The position numbers and the translations under genes are program-made. A stretch of DNA of 25,641 nucleotides from positions 1 through 25,641 of IMG/VR virus record IMGVR_UViG_3300044712_000419; one strand, given 5' to 3'. Each line of letters begins with the position of its first letter. Position 1 is the stretch's first letter. The notes below the pieces were generated by a model. The model saw only the letters and a program-made list of their open reading frames with translations. It ran no database searches and was not told the origin of the DNA. The DNA is from a virus. Shown here piece by piece: positions 1 through 6,915 of this stretch.

Positions 1-753
1 GCAGCGGTATGGAGAACTATTGCAATCACGAACGGGGAATCTCCGATTACCAGAGCCAGCAGCAAGGGCGGCGTCATTACCCGCGTTATCGAACTGCACG
101 GCGGACCACTCAAAGGCGATGAAGTTATTGCATCAGATTTATATCGGACATTATCGCGCCACCATGGCCACGCTGGACCTGTGTTTGTGCAAAATCTGCT
201 GAATTCTCAACATGATGCGTTGACGGATTTATACAGCAAGTTAAGGTATTCAATGCGACAGGCACATCCCGGAAGTCTGGAAGCACACGTCGATGCCGTA
301 TCCTGCGTTGTGCTGGCCGATTATTTGGTCAGTCAATGGATTTTTGGATTATCCGAGCCGGACGCAGGCCAGCAGTCAATCCAAATGGGAACTGCAGTCT
401 TGGCGGAACTGATATCAAAAAATGACGCATCCGAATCGGTCCGGGCATGGGACTGGTTGCAGGATTGGATTGCGGCCAATGAAAATAAGTTTGAAAGCAT
501 CAATGGATCAAATCGAAACCCGCCTAGCGTAACACTGGGATATTCTGACGGGTACGACACGGTGCATATCATCAAGGCCGAGTTGTCAAGGGCGCTGCGC
601 GAAGAAGGATACTCTGCGGAAAAACTTTACCGGCAGTGGGCGGATGAAGGTAAAATACCATTTACGACACGGCCTGATGGCCGTAAGGCATATGGAACTA
701 AAAACCGCAGGTTTAGAGGGTGCCAGCCCTGGGTGATAACTATAAAAACATAA
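1..753 (+). CDS. DUF927-type phage primase/helicase, C-terminal part (5' end cut by window)
   Basis: The frame is open from base 1 to a TAA at 751-753, giving about 250 residues with no start in view. The visible part begins with WRTIAITNGESPI and continues through GGVITRVIELHGGP. This resembles the ATPase-core end of DUF927 proteins, the superfamily II helicase-like replication proteins of phages and mobile elements. The tail has the usual basic helical region, with a KAELSRALREEGYSAEKLY segment and a final RRFRGCQPWVITIKT. The Walker motifs would lie upstream of the window and cannot be checked. The likely role is phage DNA replication as helicase or primase partner. It directly precedes the GGGTCA repeat region, which is why that region is considered a possible origin. 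A shorter reading from a GTG at 181 would cut the conserved segment and is not favoured. Confidence 0.75.
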   Translation, partial: AAVWRTIAITNGESPITRASSKGGVITRVIELHGGPLKGDEVIASDLYRTLSRHHGHAGPVFVQNLLNSQHDALTDLYSKLRYSMRQAHPGSLEAHVDAVSCVVLADYLVSQWIFGLSEPDAGQQSIQMGTAVLAELISKNDASESVRAWDWLQDWIAANENKFESINGSNRNPPSVTLGYSDGYDTVHIIKAELSRALREEGYSAEKLYRQWADEGKIPFTTRPDGRKAYGTKNRRFRGCQPWVITIKT

Positions 754-1076
754 TGGACGGGTCACTGCGGGTCGGCTGCGGGTCACTTGTTCGGGTCAGG
801 AAAATACTATATATAATATGTGATTTGATTAATTTATATATATATGACCCGCATGTTTTTACAAAATTAACTACGTGTAGAAAATATACCCTGTTTACTA
901 AAATAATGAAAATTATAAGGGTATATAAATATATACGCATGTAAAATAAAAAAAGTGCGCGGGTCAGTGATTAAAAATCGTGAAATGTCAATAAATATAA
1001 CCGTGTAGACCGACCCGCAGACTGACCCGCAATGACCCGACGTACCCGTCTTATAAAAAAAATGGTGGTGATCATT
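754..1076. other. Intergenic gap with AT-rich core and hairpin, candidate origin or control region
   Basis: No convincing gene lies in this gap of 323 bases. Between the two repeat clusters the sequence from about 800 to 955 is very AT-rich, with runs of alternating TA. Inside it a perfect 9-bp inverted repeat, ATATACCCT at 884-892 and AGGGTATAT at 918-926, could form a hairpin with a 25-base loop. A 7-base direct repeat, CGCATGT, lies at 850-856 and 936-942. An AT-rich melt region flanked by repeated binding sites next to a replication gene is the usual look of a replication origin, but an early-gene operator region would look similar. No clear sigma-70 promoter was identified. Confidence 0.45.
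759..1038. repeat. GGGTCA/TGACCC motif array in two opposed clusters (possible iterons)
   Basis: On the + strand GGGTC[A/G] occurs at 759-764, 769-774, 780-785 and 793-798, a step of 10-13 bp. Single copies lie at 845-850 (TGACCC) and 961-966 (GGGTCA). A reverse-oriented cluster reads CGACCC 1011-1016, TGACCC 1023-1028 and TGACCC 1033-1038, followed by a weaker TACCCG at 1043-1048. The left cluster is therefore mirrored by the right one, and most copies share the longer core TGCGGGTCA. The near-helical step suggests binding of several copies of one protein on the same face of the DNA. Candidates are a phage replication initiator or a regulator. Motif and spacing are seen directly; function is inferred. 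Confidence 0.7.
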
Positions 1077-1490
1077 ATGCTGACCGACTATATAAAATCT
1101 GTCATCGATCCCCATGATGCTGCGTTGGTTGAGGACTTTTTGAAACGTTCACATGCTCGCAACAATGAAACAATTATTTCCGAACTTGCGGAAAGTGACT
1201 GGCACGATAAATATGGACAGTTATCGCCGGTAGATTCTGATTTGTGGTTGAATCTAATTGTGATGGCAGATCGCGAGTACGACAAATCATTGGCGTTACG
1301 ACTGCTTGACATTAGAAATCGTGGGTCAGTATTGATTCCGCATGATAAATACGGATACGCGATCAGACCGGTGATCGGTCCTAACGGATGGATGTCAGCG
1401 CAAGAATATGATCGAGCCAGGGGACCACTACTCAGATACGAACATGCAATCATACTTATGTTGGGGAGGTTGAAAGATGCCAACATCTGA
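1077..1490 (+). CDS. Hypothetical phage protein (137 aa)
   Basis: I do not recognise this protein. The ATG at 1077 is chosen because GGTGGTGAT stands just upstream at 1064-1072; the frame is open further up to 1032, but that stretch runs into the repeat array. The product is an acidic, mostly helical soluble protein without signal peptide or membrane segment. Its C-terminal third has the run RGPLLRYEHAIILMLGRLKD, which looks like a packing helix. Its stop overlaps the start of the next gene, so the two are probably translated together. It lies between replication and packaging genes, where phages often carry small recombination or regulatory proteins, but the sequence gives no specific function. 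Confidence 0.7.
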   Translation: MLTDYIKSVIDPHDAALVEDFLKRSHARNNETIISELAESDWHDKYGQLSPVDSDLWLNLIVMADREYDKSLALRLLDIRNRGSVLIPHDKYGYAIRPVIGPNGWMSAQEYDRARGPLLRYEHAIILMLGRLKDANI

Positions 1491-1764
1491 ATTAAAACCC
1501 TGGCCGTGCCTTGATTGTAAAATCATGATGGAATTGATTGACGAAGACCATTGTAAATGCCCTATTTGCAAAACAGAAGTATGGTTTAAATATGATGCAC
1601 CGGATTTAAGCGACGATTCGATTGATTATTCGGATGTGCCGACAAATTATGTTTCCAGATCACTGCCTGAACTGTATAAGGTTCCGCCAGGAGGAAGCAA
1701 ATCTGGGAAAAGACCAAAGAAGAAAGGAACCAAAACATATCTTGATAATGGATATTGTGGCTGA
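1477..1764 (+). CDS. Small zinc-ribbon protein (95 aa)
   Basis: The start ATG at 1477 follows GGGGAGGT at 1463-1470 and overlaps the end of the preceding gene by 14 bases. Near the N-terminus the order CLDC, then 16 residues, then CPIC gives two CxxC knuckles of a zinc ribbon, followed by an aromatic WFKY. The C-terminal third is basic, with the stretch KSGKRPKKKGTK. A zinc ribbon plus a basic tail fits binding to nucleic acid or to a phage replication protein. No catalytic motif is visible, and the exact role is unknown. It is the last gene before the promoter/terminator gap. Confidence 0.75.
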   Translation: MPTSELKPWPCLDCKIMMELIDEDHCKCPICKTEVWFKYDAPDLSDDSIDYSDVPTNYVSRSLPELYKVPPGGSKSGKRPKKKGTKTYLDNGYCG

Positions 1765-1796
1765 CCTTCTAAAATGACGGTTTTATACACAACATA

Positions 1797-1825
1797 TTGA
1801 CAATTGTCTGTCCGTCTGATATCGT
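1797..1825 (+). promoter_or_regulatory. Candidate sigma-70/A promoter for the late (packaging and structural) genes
   Basis: TTGACA at 1797-1802 is a perfect -35 box. Seventeen bases later TATCGT at 1820-1825 matches the -10 consensus in four of six positions. A transcript would start near 1832 and run straight into the terminator at 1855-1883. It is the only good promoter seen upstream of the packaging genes. Confidence 0.5.
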
Positions 1826-1833
1826 AACAATTG
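1799..1833. promoter_or_regulatory. Palindromes overlapping the promoter, candidate operator
   Basis: GACAATTGTC at 1799-1808 is a perfect 10-bp palindrome overlapping the -35 box. Its arm CAATTGT (1801-1807) is mirrored by ACAATTG at 1827-1833 just past the -10 box. A dimeric regulator bound there would bracket the promoter. The repeats are seen directly; the regulator is unknown. Confidence 0.4.
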
Positions 1834-1854
1834 GATCACTTACTCTATAAACAG

Positions 1855-1883
1855 GGGCCGCCAATTGGCGGTCCTTTCTTTAT
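1855..1883 (+). terminator. Intrinsic terminator downstream of the candidate late promoter
   Basis: Bases 1855-1862 pair with 1867-1874 in an 8-bp GC-rich stem with one G-T pair and the loop AATT. TTTCTTTAT follows. It lies about 25 bases after the predicted transcript start, so it would stop both read-through from the early genes and new transcripts from the promoter at 1797 unless antitermination occurs. Confidence 0.75.
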
Positions 1884-1902
1884 GCCCAATCGGAGGTGTT
1901 TG

Positions 1903-2136
1903 ATGGTTGACCTGCACTGCGATAAACGCTGTTGGTATAACGAGAATGAACGCTGCACTGCTAAGTCAGTATACTTTTCTGGTGGAAGATGCCAAACAGT
2001 TCGAAGATTGCCGGCGCTACCAGCGGCACATGTTCCATGCGCGACATCAACACCGATGATCATGCGGCAGGAGGATGTGCCTGGTCGATGCGTCAGACCG
2101 GATCGGCGAGGGCGGCGGACGTGGACGGGAAGATGA
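1903..2136 (+). CDS. Small Cys-rich phage protein, apparently frameshifted near base 1999
   Basis: The start ATG at 1903 has CGGAGGTG upstream at 1891-1898. The first 32 residues hold four cysteines (C6, C10, C18, C30) in the order CDKRC, ERC, GRC, typical of very small metal-binding phage proteins. After GRCQT the reading frame turns into an Arg/Pro-rich string that does not look like natural protein. In the +1 frame from TTC at 2000 the sequence reads FEDCRRYQRHMFHARHQHR and stops at 2057-2059, which looks like the genuine ending. A single-base difference near 1999 therefore probably broke the gene, unless it is a sequencing error. An intact form would be about 51 residues. Function unknown. 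Confidence 0.5.
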   Translation: MVDLHCDKRCWYNENERCTAKSVYFSGGRCQTVRRLPALPAAHVPCATSTPMIMRQEDVPGRCVRPDRRGRRTWTGR

Positions 2137-2140
2137 TAAC

Positions 2141-2767
2141 ATGAGTTTTTGCAATGAATGCGCTGCAAAGAATTATTGCGAAGAATTGGGGATGCGATGT
2201 CGAGCATATAAAGCAATTTATGAATTATGCGATGAAGCGGTGACATCAAACAAAGCTGAGTTGATTCGCGGATATGCAAAAGAACTTGATATCATCGAAT
2301 ATGAGGTTTCGCACGAATTGCAGCAATTAGGAGAATCAGTCGTTGCTAATATGCCTGAACTTCATATTATCCGTGATTATGGCGTAAAAATTGGCTATGT
2401 TATCAGCTATTATTCAAAAAACAAGGACGGCAAATCTGTGTTTGCCGACTGCCGGAAAGTGACAAACACTTACACGGCATTTTTGCCTTTCGATTTTATT
2501 ATTACGTTTTATGACCCAAACACATATCTTCTGACAGATAACCAAAAAAAGATTCTGATGCTGCATGAATTAAAGCATATTGGGATGGGGCCGAAAGGGC
2601 TTCGGGTCGAGCCGCATGATATTGAAGACTTTGCTGGCATTCTTCAAAACTATGGTTTGAATTGGAATGGCTACCAGGTAGACGTTCCAGACATATTGGC
2701 AGGTGGTGATGATGAAACAGGAGCGCAAGAAAAGAAAAACTACAAAAAAGAAAACAAAAACCGTTAG
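2141..2767 (+). CDS. Putative phage zinc metallopeptidase (PhageMetallopep-like)
   Basis: The protein carries the zinc-peptidase motif HELKH at residues 142-146, in the context ILMLHELKHIGMG, followed by PHDIEDF at 158-164. That combination is the mark of the putative phage metallopeptidase family (PF18894); H159 or D160 may be the third ligand. The N-terminus adds a possible zinc knuckle of C4, C7, C13 and C20. The ATG at 2141 is preferred over an in-frame ATG at 2075 because the AGGAGG at 2069-2074 touches the latter without spacing and the extra 22 residues look unnatural; the choice is not certain. The gene lies directly before the small terminase and overlaps it. Its substrate is not known; processing of a host or head protein is possible. 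Confidence 0.75.
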   Translation: MSFCNECAAKNYCEELGMRCRAYKAIYELCDEAVTSNKAELIRGYAKELDIIEYEVSHELQQLGESVVANMPELHIIRDYGVKIGYVISYYSKNKDGKSVFADCRKVTNTYTAFLPFDFIITFYDPNTYLLTDNQKKILMLHELKHIGMGPKGLRVEPHDIEDFAGILQNYGLNWNGYQVDVPDILAGGDDETGAQEKKNYKKENKNR

Positions 2768-3227
2768 AGCGTGGGTTCCGCGCCCTGAATTGATTGAAAT
2801 TGCAAATTTGCTTGTGAATCCGGATGATAGAAGATCGAAAGCAGATAAAATCAAGGCGGCTGGACTAACGGAACAGGTTTTTTACCGATGGATGAAAGAT
2901 CCTCGTTTTATTAGCTATCTCAATAATTTGATTGATAAATATACCGATGCTGAATTGCCGGTCGTTTGGAAGGCTCTCATGCGTAAATGCGCTATCGGTG
3001 ACGTTTCGGCAATCAAACTATATTTTGATTTGAAACGATTGAATCCTGAGTTTGCCTTAAAGCAGGAACTTGGGAAAGAGCGCCTGGCAATCGAGCGCCA
3101 GAAAATTGCTTTACTGGAAAGCAAATTAAACGGCGGGGCTCCAGCGGAGGAAGACGATGGGTTTATTGATGCGCTGAAGGTGTCGGCAGCCAACATCTGG
3201 AACGAGCCAGGTGAGTCAAGTGAATAG
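2712..3227 (+). CDS. terS: Terminase small subunit (DNA recognition, packaging)
   Basis: This 171-residue protein opens with a very basic leader (KKRKTTKKKTK). A helix-turn-helix-like segment follows, with KADKIKAAGLTEQVFYRWMK around residues 44-63, as in phBC6A51-type small terminases. A helical oligomerisation region comes next. The acidic C-terminus (EEDDGFIDAL) would contact the large subunit. AGGTGGTGAT at 2701-2710 is the ribosome site; in-frame GTG and ATG codons at 2703-2711 are alternative starts. The gene overlaps the metallopeptidase upstream and the large terminase downstream, the standard packaging order. It is expected to bind the pac or cos site, often in or near this gene, but I could not identify that site. 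Confidence 0.8.
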   Translation: MKQERKKRKTTKKKTKTVRAWVPRPELIEIANLLVNPDDRRSKADKIKAAGLTEQVFYRWMKDPRFISYLNNLIDKYTDAELPVVWKALMRKCAIGDVSAIKLYFDLKRLNPEFALKQELGKERLAIERQKIALLESKLNGGAPAEEDDGFIDALKVSAANIWNEPGESSE

Positions 3228-4497
3228 TAAGATGGCGGCTGTCATCAAGTTTGTGGCGTTCTCTGTCAAGCAGCTGAAAATCCTGACCTGGTGGACGGCA
3301 GTTTCCCCGTATCAAAATTGGAACGGTATTATAGCCGATGGCGCGATCCGCGCGGGCAAAACTGTTCCGATGGCAATGTCCTATGTTTTTTGGGCAATGG
3401 ACACCTTCAGCGGTCAGAACTTTGCAATGTGCGGTAAAAGCATTGGCGCCTTTAAACGGAATGTCTGGCAGTGGCTGAAACCGGCGCTGCAAAAGCGTGG
3501 CTATCACATTATAGAGGTTCGGTCGACGAACTTCATTACCATATCTTTTCGCGGCAAGACCAACTATTTTTATATCTTCGGAGGCAAGGACGAATCAAGC
3601 CAGGACCTGATTCAGGGCATTACCCTGGCGGGGATATATTTCGACGAAGTTGCACTGCAGCCGGAATCCTTCGTGCTGCAGGGGACTGGCCGCTGCTCCG
3701 TCAAAGGAGCAAAGTTTTGGTTTAACTGTAACCCGGAAGGACCGGAACACTGGTTCAAGAAAGACTGGATTGACAAGGTTGCCGAAAAGAAACTGCTTCA
3801 TATTCATTTCAGTATGGATGATAACCCGTCCCTGGATGATGACACGAAAGCCCGGTACAAATCGATGTACTCGGGCGTTTTCTTTCAGCGGTTCATTCTT
3901 GGTTTGTGGGTCATTGCCAAGGGTGCCATTTATGACATGTTCGGCGCAGCCAATACATATTCGGACGGATCCGGCCCAAACTATGCGCTATGGTACCGCC
4001 GATATTTTGTTATTGATTATGGCACCGTGAATCCTTTCGTGATCTTGGAAGTCATTGAACAGGACAAGAAATACTACGTTGAAAATGAATGGTATTACGA
4101 TTCGAAGGCGCACAATCGCCAAAAAGATGATAACGAGTACACTGACGATTTAATCAAGTTTATCGATAATCGACGTTACGGGTCGGTGATCATCGACCCA
4201 TCAGCGGCTAGTTTCAAGGCGGCTGCACGTAATAAAGGCGTACGGTTCCGCGATGCCGACAATGATGTGTTGGATGGAATCCACTTAACCGCATCGCTGT
4301 TTTCGCTGTCCATACTCAAGATCAATAAAGACAAATGCCCGACACTGATCGCAGAGATCGCATCATACATATGGGACGAAAAGGCCAGTGAGCGCGGCGA
4401 AGAAAAGCCGGTCAAAGTATTCGACCATGCAGTGGACGCGCTCAGATATGCCGTAAAAACAATAGTTAGATACATTCCGATGGATAAGAAGTTCTAG
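3211..4497 (+). CDS. terL: Terminase large subunit (ATPase and nuclease)
   Basis: This is the packaging motor and genome-cutting enzyme of the PBSX-like terminase family. The N-terminal ATPase has a Walker A variant GAIRAGKT at residues 44-51, a Walker B IYFDEV with D145 and E146, and a coupling motif FNCNPEGP at 171-178. The C-terminal RNase H-like nuclease shows candidate metal ligands D269 (VIDYGT), D329 (IIDP) and the FDHAVDALRYA segment with D405 and D409. The length of 428 residues is normal. The start is GTG at 3211, overlapping the small subunit by 17 bases; ATG at 3232 is a shorter alternative. The TAG stop shares CTAG with the stop of the endonuclease gene on the opposite strand. 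Confidence 0.93.
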   Translation: MSQVNSKMAAVIKFVAFSVKQLKILTWWTAVSPYQNWNGIIADGAIRAGKTVPMAMSYVFWAMDTFSGQNFAMCGKSIGAFKRNVWQWLKPALQKRGYHIIEVRSTNFITISFRGKTNYFYIFGGKDESSQDLIQGITLAGIYFDEVALQPESFVLQGTGRCSVKGAKFWFNCNPEGPEHWFKKDWIDKVAEKKLLHIHFSMDDNPSLDDDTKARYKSMYSGVFFQRFILGLWVIAKGAIYDMFGAANTYSDGSGPNYALWYRRYFVIDYGTVNPFVILEVIEQDKKYYVENEWYYDSKAHNRQKDDNEYTDDLIKFIDNRRYGSVIIDPSAASFKAAARNKGVRFRDADNDVLDGIHLTASLFSLSILKINKDKCPTLIAEIASYIWDEKASERGEEKPVKVFDHAVDALRYAVKTIVRYIPMDKKF

Positions 4498-5120
4498 CTT
4501 CGCGTTTTTCGGGGCAGATGAGACAGAAGGTCTTTGCAGACAAGAGAACAGGTTTTCGTGTTTTGATACTTATTGGCAAAATAATTGCCCCCACAAATTA
4601 CACAAACCTTTTCTATATCATCAATGTGCTGATCTCTTCGCCATGCGGCTCTGCATTTATTAGAACAGAATTTGTTAGTTCCAAAGGGTTTCTTCTGAAA
4701 TTCTGTTTTGCATTGCAGGCAAATATATTCGCGTGGTTGCATTTTAGTTGCAACCTTTTTTGCATGTTCACGATGCCAGGATCGGCCTTCTTCCGATTTA
4801 TGCCAAGCTTTTGCTTTAGGGATGACCAAATTAATCATATTGTCACGAATGCGTGTTCTTTCAAGATCGGACAATAATTCACCGTGTACTTTTTGATGGA
4901 CCTTCCCGGGAATAAGATCCAAATTGTCAATTGCGTTATTTAGTCTGTTCTTATCTTTATGATGGACTTCAAATCCATTAGGAATAGGTCCGTTGTGTTT
5001 CATCCAAACATATCGGTGTAAACGAATTCTTTTCCCGTTTATTGGCGAGCTACTCAAATAAAATTTTGTTTTTTTATCCAACCGAAAATTAAAACCATCT
5101 ACTATCAACAAATCTGCCAT
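4494..5120 (-). CDS. HNH homing-type endonuclease with zinc fingers
   Basis: This is the only gene on the - strand. Residues 35-80 form an HNH_3-type nuclease core: HRYVWMKHNG, then EVHHKDKNRLNN with H53, H54 and N62, then the ending IPGKVHQKVHG. The C-terminal half has two Cys pairs of pairs, C134/C137 with C152/C156 and C173/C176 with C191/C195, likely two zinc fingers for DNA binding. Such free-standing genes are selfish elements that cut alleles lacking them. The gene sits between terminase and portal genes, convergent to terL and sharing four bases with it. It is visibly more AT-rich than its neighbours, as expected of an insertion. The ATG at 5120 has GGAGG eight bases upstream. Confidence 0.88.
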   Translation of the reverse strand: MADLLIVDGFNFRLDKKTKFYLSSSPINGKRIRLHRYVWMKHNGPIPNGFEVHHKDKNRLNNAIDNLDLIPGKVHQKVHGELLSDLERTRIRDNMINLVIPKAKAWHKSEEGRSWHREHAKKVATKMQPREYICLQCKTEFQKKPFGTNKFCSNKCRAAWRRDQHIDDIEKVCVICGGNYFANKYQNTKTCSLVCKDLLSHLPRKTRS

Positions 5121-5203: not shown

Positions 5204-5368
5204 ATGGGCGTTCGAGTAGCAAAATGGATATGCAGCGATTGCGGGAATATAATGCCGATTAGTGACCCTCGTCATCGAGATATTAATACTTGCACGCATT
5301 GCGGCAGCGCAAAAGTTCCACCGAAGCGACCTGCGCCGCCAGCCCCGACAAGGAGAACTAATAAATGA
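5204..5368 (+). CDS. Zinc-ribbon miniprotein (54 aa) before the portal gene
   Basis: AGGAGGGAT at 5190-5198 sets the start at ATG 5204. The 54-residue product has two CxxC knuckles, CSDC and CTHC, about 20 residues apart, so it should fold as a single zinc ribbon. It ends in a Pro/Arg-rich tail (PPKRPAPPAPTRRTNK). The TGA overlaps the ATG of the portal gene, so expression is coupled to it. Small zinc-ribbon genes at this place are common in phages; their function is unknown. It was probably adjacent to terL before the endonuclease gene was inserted. Confidence 0.7.
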   Translation: MGVRVAKWICSDCGNIMPISDPRHRDINTCTHCGSAKVPPKRPAPPAPTRRTNK

Positions 5369-6915
5369 GCAGATCAAGATATAAGCCAAAACATATCGAA
5401 TCGCGCGAACATGCCGTTGCGCCTCCGGTCAAAGTCTCTGCTGCCGACAGCTTTCAGAATGTCCTGGGACGATTAGGAGCAGACCAGCCGAACTTGGCCA
5501 GTATGGCCAATTATGTCATGAACAGGTTGACCAGGGACTATAATCTTCTGAATGTACTGTATCGAAACAGTTGGATCATTAAAAAAATCGTGAACATCAT
5601 TCCGGAAGACATGGTGAAAAACTGGGTTGACCTGACCACTGAACTGACGCCGGAACAGACTGACCGATACAAGAAACTGGAGCGGCGGACCAAGGTTAGG
5701 GAAAAGATTCTTGAAGGGTTATACTGGGGGCGTCTTTATGGCGGGGCCGGGGCGCTGATTATGATTGACGGGCATGAAGGCATCTTGGATCAGCCGCTTG
5801 ATCTTGACCAGGTCATGCCGAATTCGTTTTGCGGACTGATGGTGCTGGACCGCTGGACAGGTATTTTCCCATCATCTGAATTAATATCAGATCCGCGCGA
5901 TCCTGAATTTGGCATGCCGAAATATTATGAGGTTCGTGATACAACCAAAGGTACTGCCGCCCGCAATCCAGACAATAAAGGCAGCCTGGTCTTAACGGTG
6001 CATCACAGCCGCATTATCCGATTCACGGGACGGAAGCTGCCGTTTTTGGAAGAGCAGGCAGAAATGTACTGGGGCGCGTCCGAGATTGAACACGTGAAGG
6101 ACGAGCTGGACAAACGAAACAATACCAGCTGGAACATTGCGTCGCTTGTGTTCCAGGCAAACTTGCTGATCAATAAAGTGCAGGGACTCGATCAGATTAA
6201 TTCACTGGCCGACCCGCAAATGCAGCGTGATTTTTATAACGTGAAATCGGCACAGAATCAAATGCGGTCGAATCAGGGCATGATGATGATTGGTCCGGAA
6301 GATGATTTGCAGGCGATTCAATACACGTTTGCGGGCCTGAACGACATTTATGAATCATTCATGATGGATGTGGCCGGCGCGTCAGACATACCTGTCACAA
6401 GATTGTTCGGACGTAGTCCGGCGGGAATGAATTCCACCGGTGAATCGGACCTGCAAAACTATTACGACATGATCAGCCAGCAGCAGGAAGCGGTCCTCAA
6501 GCCGAAGCTGAACAAACTGCTGCCGGTCATGTTCATGAGTGAATTCGGGTATGTTCCTGCAGATCTGGACACAAAGGCGAACCCGATCCGGACAATGTCG
6601 GACAAGGAAGTCGCAGACCTGATTGACAAAAAAGCTGAAGCTGTCGGGAAAGCCTATGATCGTGGCATCATTTCGCAAAAATGCGCGATATCTGAACTGC
6701 ATGAAATGAGCTACAACACGAACATGTTCACATCGATTACGGATGAGGACATCGAGGCAGCTGATGCAACGATGAAAGTCCCCGGAGAGTTCGGGGTAGG
6801 AGGTGACCCGCTCGATGGACTCTTGGGATCTGACTCCTCGAATCGAAACCCGGTACAAACAAAACCTGCAATACCTGATGAACTGGGCCTGGGAACAAGC
6901 AAGCCAGTCAAATGA
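5365..6915 (+). CDS. Portal protein, DUF1073 family
   Basis: This 516-residue protein matches the DUF1073 (PF06381) portal family in length, place and conserved segments: RDYNLLNVLYRNSWIIKKIV near 53-72, IPEDMVKNWVDL, GRLYGGAGALIMIDG around 122-136, and VTRLFGRSPAGMNSTGE near 346-362. The portal ring sits at one head vertex, passes DNA inward during packaging and binds the neck afterwards. The C-terminus is acidic and proline-bearing and overlaps the next gene by about 100 bases. Databases often label this family Acb1-like because of a shared N-terminal domain; I see no paired HxT motifs of a 2H phosphoesterase and call it a portal only. Confidence 0.88.
   Translation: MSRSRYKPKHIESREHAVAPPVKVSAADSFQNVLGRLGADQPNLASMANYVMNRLTRDYNLLNVLYRNSWIIKKIVNIIPEDMVKNWVDLTTELTPEQTDRYKKLERRTKVREKILEGLYWGRLYGGAGALIMIDGHEGILDQPLDLDQVMPNSFCGLMVLDRWTGIFPSSELISDPRDPEFGMPKYYEVRDTTKGTAARNPDNKGSLVLTVHHSRIIRFTGRKLPFLEEQAEMYWGASEIEHVKDELDKRNNTSWNIASLVFQANLLINKVQGLDQINSLADPQMQRDFYNVKSAQNQMRSNQGMMMIGPEDDLQAIQYTFAGLNDIYESFMMDVAGASDIPVTRLFGRSPAGMNSTGESDLQNYYDMISQQQEAVLKPKLNKLLPVMFMSEFGYVPADLDTKANPIRTMSDKEVADLIDKKAEAVGKAYDRGIISQKCAISELHEMSYNTNMFTSITDEDIEAADATMKVPGEFGVGGDPLDGLLGSDSSNRNPVQTKPAIPDELGLGTSKPVK

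Follow-up and report, generated by a model that had tools for sequence, protein, structure and literature searches.

The closest described counterparts of the locus analysed here are origins of the SaPI/PICI type. As summarised in the papers cited, SaPI Rep uses its C-terminal domain to recognise an origin with iterons that is situated directly downstream of its own gene (PMC7581432), and SaPI origins contain oppositely oriented repeats, on which two head-to-head hexamers are proposed to load (PMC9894130). PICI origins are described as always possessing two sets of iterons flanking an AT-rich region, an organisation that the same source states to be absent from every other known bacterial replicon (PMC6092414). 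For SCCmec Cch2, the C-terminal domain is reported to bind repeats just downstream of the cch2 gene (PMC7581432). This protein belongs to a different helicase family, and its iterons, of 5 bp each, number only three and form a single group. No description of an origin for SCCmec Cch was found in the literature cited here. In origins of iteron plasmids or of the phage lambda type, the initiator is not a helicase, and usually a single, directly repeated iteron array is found.

The DNA analysed (the window) is a whole IMG/VR record of 25,641 bp and represents a tailed-phage fragment with genes for terminase, portal and further structural proteins. The ORF at 1-753 (plus strand) is cut by the window edge, so that only the HTH_56 end of its product (the C-terminal 250 residues) is visible. 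This piece matched Pfam HTH_56 ('Cch helix turn helix domain'; 4e-11) and a PHROG primase/helicase family (3e-37). Comparison of a helicase-family profile with PDB sequences yielded confident matches only to the SaPI protein 8tch (2e-11) and SCCmec Cch 5dgk (9e-9), and the same two structures alone were matched at a probability of 1.00 by an AlphaFold model of the piece (mean pLDDT 85), for which two rows from phage database records were left out of the alignment; SCCmec Cch, a structural relative, and SaPIbov1 Rep are its clear PDB relatives, with no others. A winged helix is located at about residues 187-250, with predicted wing strands at residues 221-223 and 229-231. The ORF encodes the C-terminal portion of an MCM-like helicase of the DUF927/Cch type (DUF927/Cch/SaPIbov1-Rep family). 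The DUF927 gene named in the preliminary description was thereby borne out, with the HTH_56 end seen in the window and DUF927 plus HTH_56 joined within one protein in the nearest relative, L127, whose helicase is 50% identical. In L127, the helicase (775-3768) carries a long fused N-terminal extension. The extension differs from the CHC2 zinc finger found in phage THSA-485A and resembles a P4-family primase from a Parageobacillus plasmid and a hypothetical protein from an Anoxybacillus plasmid, which suggests that primase domains may have been swapped.

Non-coding DNA of 323 bp lies between the stop codon of the helicase (753) and the gene that follows (1077-1490, plus strand, function not assigned). 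A homologue of the downstream gene occupies the same place in L127 (ORF 4018-4497), and two small genes downstream of the helicase are common to the window and L127. Further along in L127, a small ORF beside the phage replication genes (4818-5099) contains the motif DSIDLVELAMEFEDEF and looks like an acyl carrier protein, an unusual phage cargo. In the window, a gene with a PhageMetallopep match (2141-2767; Pfam, 8e-22) lies immediately ahead of the terminase small-subunit gene, and an HNH endonuclease gene on the minus strand (4494-5120), which looks like a mobile homing-type gene, stands between the terminase large-subunit and portal genes.

Within the non-coding stretch, nine copies of CGGGTC[A/G] were found between 758 and 1039. 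All copies of the motif previously read as GGGTC[A/G] were recovered where they had been reported, starting at 759, 769, 780 and 793 (plus strand), 845 (minus), 961 (plus) and 1011, 1023 and 1033 (minus), and each of them extends to CGGGTC[A/G]. The outer-left array (758-798, plus strand) comprises four copies spaced by 10, 11 and 13 bp and holds the same place relative to the helicase stop as in relatives. It is followed by a single reversed inner-left iteron (TGACCCG; 845-851, minus strand), an AT-rich core that may serve as the melting region (852-959), a single inner-right iteron (960-966, plus strand) and an outer-right array of three copies spaced by 12 and 10 bp (1011-1039, minus strand). 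A degenerate fourth outer-right copy, GTACCCG (1042-1048, minus strand), has two mismatches to CGGGTCA and is weak by itself, although it stands in register; when it is counted, the spacings read from outside to inside are 10, 11 and 13 bp on the left and 10, 10 and 12 bp on the right. The number of CGGGTC matches in 754-1076 (nine) compares with a maximum of five among 3000 dinucleotide shuffles, and no other part of the window contains more than five. The first iteron starts 5 bp past the helicase stop, so that the array lies directly 3' of the initiator gene, as in SaPI/PICI-type origins. The long imperfect inverted repeat that had been remarked upon is present and is a mere consequence of the opposed orientation of the arrays.

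The AT-richness ascribed to the tract between the arrays was confirmed (851-960; 75% AT versus 52% window-wide), placing it in the top 0.3% of 110-bp stretches. The perfect 9-bp inverted repeat described within it (884-892/918-926) exists, but carries little weight as evidence because shuffled cores also reach 9-bp stems and the stems in relatives scarcely exceed those of shuffles (7.3 versus 6.0 bp, with 15% of cores beating all 20 shuffles); a conserved functional stem is thus only weakly indicated. An Rfam search for structured RNA returned zero matches up to E=1, and promoter and terminator matches were near chance (promoter-like, 4 versus 2.2 expected).

Relatives of the locus were collected by alignment-based scans of viral and genome contigs, which were needed since a single-protein search returned none, and 143 non-redundant helicases (<85% identical) were retained. 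A single short-repeat family that exceeded all 50 shuffles was detected within 420 bp downstream of the helicase stop in 123 of the 143 loci, whereas the remaining 20 gave no clear iteron family by this test; the mean copy number over all 143 was 7.3, as compared to 2.1 in shuffles and 2.4 in control windows. In five distant phage genomes, with helicases 25-31% identical, short repeats of other sequence occupy the same place. In the common layout, which follows the helicase gene in more than 100 phages and prophages with differing repeat words, outer-left sites are separated by ~47 bp from one to three inner-left sites; beyond the core, inner-right sites facing the other way are again followed after ~47 bp by outer-right sites. 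The core measures a median of 99 bp between the inner sites and has a mean AT content of 70%, as against 50% in the locus. Neighbouring sites of the same orientation are mostly 7-12 bp apart. Inner-left and inner-right sites are oppositely oriented in 109 of 120 relatives, as judged after layouts had been normalised on the inner sites, with orientation labels being ambiguous in part of the family because the iterons are quasi-palindromic (TG...CA). The window conforms to this layout; it has one inner site on each side, and its outer arrays are unusually symmetrical, as are those of L127. Mirrored arrays had been regarded as less usual, yet opposed arrays are the norm in the SaPI/PICI class of origins.

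The iteron word differs in the middle between the window (TGCGGGTCA) and L127 (TGCGGAACA); all copies have changed together, while some flanking positions can still be aligned. Words of further relatives include GGTGTAACA, GGCGTAAGG and GTGGGACA. Conservation in related phages, which had been proposed as a check, therefore holds for the layout, the spacing and the position behind the helicase (in about 120 of the 143) and fails for the exact motif. With the CGGGTCR array alone as a query, 120 stretches were retrieved from public viral contigs and a helicase relative was detected by tblastn in none of those examined, so that the bare motif finds chance repeats. In the complete phages THSA-485A (30.8-31.2 kb) and FP_Epona (13.25-13.58 kb), the array constitutes the strongest short-repeat cluster of the genome. 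GC skew, which had been put forward as another check, did not mark the site in either of them; cumulative skew tracks transcription and is hence uninformative. Outside genomes listed as phages, AGTTCCC repeats follow the helicase in a circular record of 39.8 kb from Eubacterium callanderi (a phage genome catalogued as a plasmid). In the Geobacillus plasmid pSJEF4-2-2 (L368; CP128451.1, 1-13067), 14 GTCACAA iterons directly after the helicase show the layout described above. The only recognisable replication genes of pSJEF4-2-2 encode a CHC2 (zinc-finger) primase and the DUF927 helicase, which makes it a candidate for a minimal natural replicon with a SaPI/PICI-type origin. Its repeated gene set suggests that the 13-kb plasmid may be a diverged dimer of about 6.5 kb. 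As a natural replicon, it lends indirect support to the view that such an origin can sustain autonomous replication together with its helicase.

A second element was recognised in both outer-inner iteron spacers of many relatives (L002, L128, L130, L132, L165, L209 and others), namely a 23-bp imperfect dyad of the approximate form AAacCytgaaa...CaaGGnTTT. In a strict version it was present in 22% of the left spacers and 15% of the right ones, compared with 0.08% of control 45-bp windows. No clear copy of the dyad boxes was found in the window. In the Geobacillus plasmid the dyad is apparently present too, with spacers within about 5325-5365 and 5508-5545.

Similarity in the HTH region of the helicase predicts iteron similarity beyond what is explained by the ATPase part (partial r 0.23; 0 of 300 permutations), whereas in the converse test similarity in the ATPase part was not predictive beyond the HTH region. 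For 40 loci with AGGNGNNANN iterons, each iteron position was compared with ~500 variable protein columns. The best column for position 9 was wing residue 237 (25 W-G, 12 R-C and 1 K-C, with 1 Y-G and 1 R-T unmatched); as the lead had come from inspecting close pairs before testing, the rank among all columns is a fairer measure than the P value. Position 4 was best matched by residue 230 (E with C) and position 6 best explained by residues 222 and 235. All four residues (222, 230, 235 and 237) fall inside or adjoin the predicted wing strands. The data derive mostly from one clade. When mapped onto a tree built from the ATPase part, residue 237 switches about 8 times and the iteron base about 9 times; the two exceptions on this tree are both of other iteron types and lie outside the clade. 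In the full set of 109 loci, AGG-type iterons accompany 25 of 33 helicases with W and none of 63 with R or K; CA is the usual partner of R (46 of 55), and CC that of K (6 of 8). Examples are W237 with GG in L154 and R237 with CA in FP_Epona. The iteron end thus corresponds to residue 237 as W-GG, R-CA and K-CC. The window obeys this rule (R237, iteron ..TCA) but not that for residue 230, as it combines A230 with C, whereas L127 follows it. Taken together, these correlations argue strongly, on comparative grounds, that it is the helicase which reads the iterons, as far as can be judged from sequence.

The stretch 754-1076 is very probably a phage replication origin read by the upstream helicase; its initial designation as a candidate origin gains support from the conserved layout together with the change of the motif in step with the DNA-reading wing. 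The arrays could also be operators through which the helicase or a small DNA-binding protein regulates the downstream genes without any origin role. Iteron binding by Rep proteins can indeed be regulatory as well, and the arrays sit between two co-directional genes; however, a layout centred on a ~100-bp AT-rich core with flanking sites facing opposite ways, the near-chance level of promoter-like matches and the retention of the array on the small Geobacillus plasmid make this explanation improbable. Even slighter is the chance of a packaging (pac/cos) or terminase-binding site, despite the terminase small-subunit gene just 1.6 kb downstream in the window, since the array tracks the helicase and the terminase lies ~6 kb off in FP_Epona and ~3 kb off in THSA-485A, the small plasmid has no terminase among its annotated genes, and iteron sequence changes in step with the helicase wing. 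Integration-arm (attP) or partition (centromere-like) sites can likewise be arrays of short repeats, but are just as improbable here, given the serine-type recombinases encoded far away as integrases of THSA-485A and FP_Epona, the absence of a ParA/ParB-like gene among the neighbours examined, and an array position tied to the helicase.

Among described origins, those of SaPI/PICI elements (such as the SaPIbov1 Rep-ori) agree with this probable origin in their position immediately 3' of the gene for a self-loading initiator helicase, which belongs to the same family, and in having two opposed iteron sets, one on each side of an AT-rich region, as portrayed in the cited accounts (PMC6092414, PMC9894130, PMC7581432). 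Because of this shared layout, the window is a phage example of that origin type, its initiator being a SaPIbov1 Rep/Cch-family helicase with a C-terminal winged helix. The iteron sequence differs from that of SaPIs, whose details are given here as described in citing papers. The carrier differs as well: a SaPI is a satellite, whereas the window comes from a tailed phage that encodes terminase, portal and tail proteins itself. PICIs are satellites that need virion proteins of a helper phage; as the window has structural genes, the SaPI/PICI origin type fits but the element itself is no PICI. Iteron plasmid and lambda-type origins are similar in placing iterons beside an AT-rich unwinding element; in single-array origins of the RepA/RepE type the initiator lacks a helicase domain, whereas here it is a DUF927/MCM-like helicase. 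By analogy with the SaPI/PICI work, from which binding, double-hexamer loading, melting and bidirectional firing are inferred, the C-terminal winged helix would bind the CGGGTCA iterons, for which the covariation of wing residues and iteron bases gives indirect support, and two oppositely oriented helicase hexamers would assemble over the left and right iteron groups. The paired, self-loading helicases would then open the AT-rich core between these groups, and unwinding would proceed both ways while primase works on the strands so exposed.

Less expected are the distribution among phages, the code that links helicase and iterons, and the conserved 23-bp dyad. An origin layout previously known mainly from staphylococcal pathogenicity islands, and described as unique to the SaPI/PICI islands, is common among ordinary tailed phages, and at least one small plasmid has it too. 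We judge it somewhat better than an even bet that these loci jointly form a large class of phage origins whose iterons coevolve with the C-terminal wing of the helicase by a readable code (residue 237: W-GG, R-CA, K-CC; residue 230: E-C), with the paired 23-bp dyads as a second, undescribed origin element. If the wing code is true, new replication specificities would arise by concerted change of all iterons together with one or two wing residues. The origins of most gut and environmental Clostridia phages are unmapped; inspection of the helicase gene and the DNA downstream of it now predicts one, and wing covariation predicts the iteron read by a given helicase. These results may also bear on the ancestry of satellite replicons and on the cross-talk of phage origins with those of satellites.
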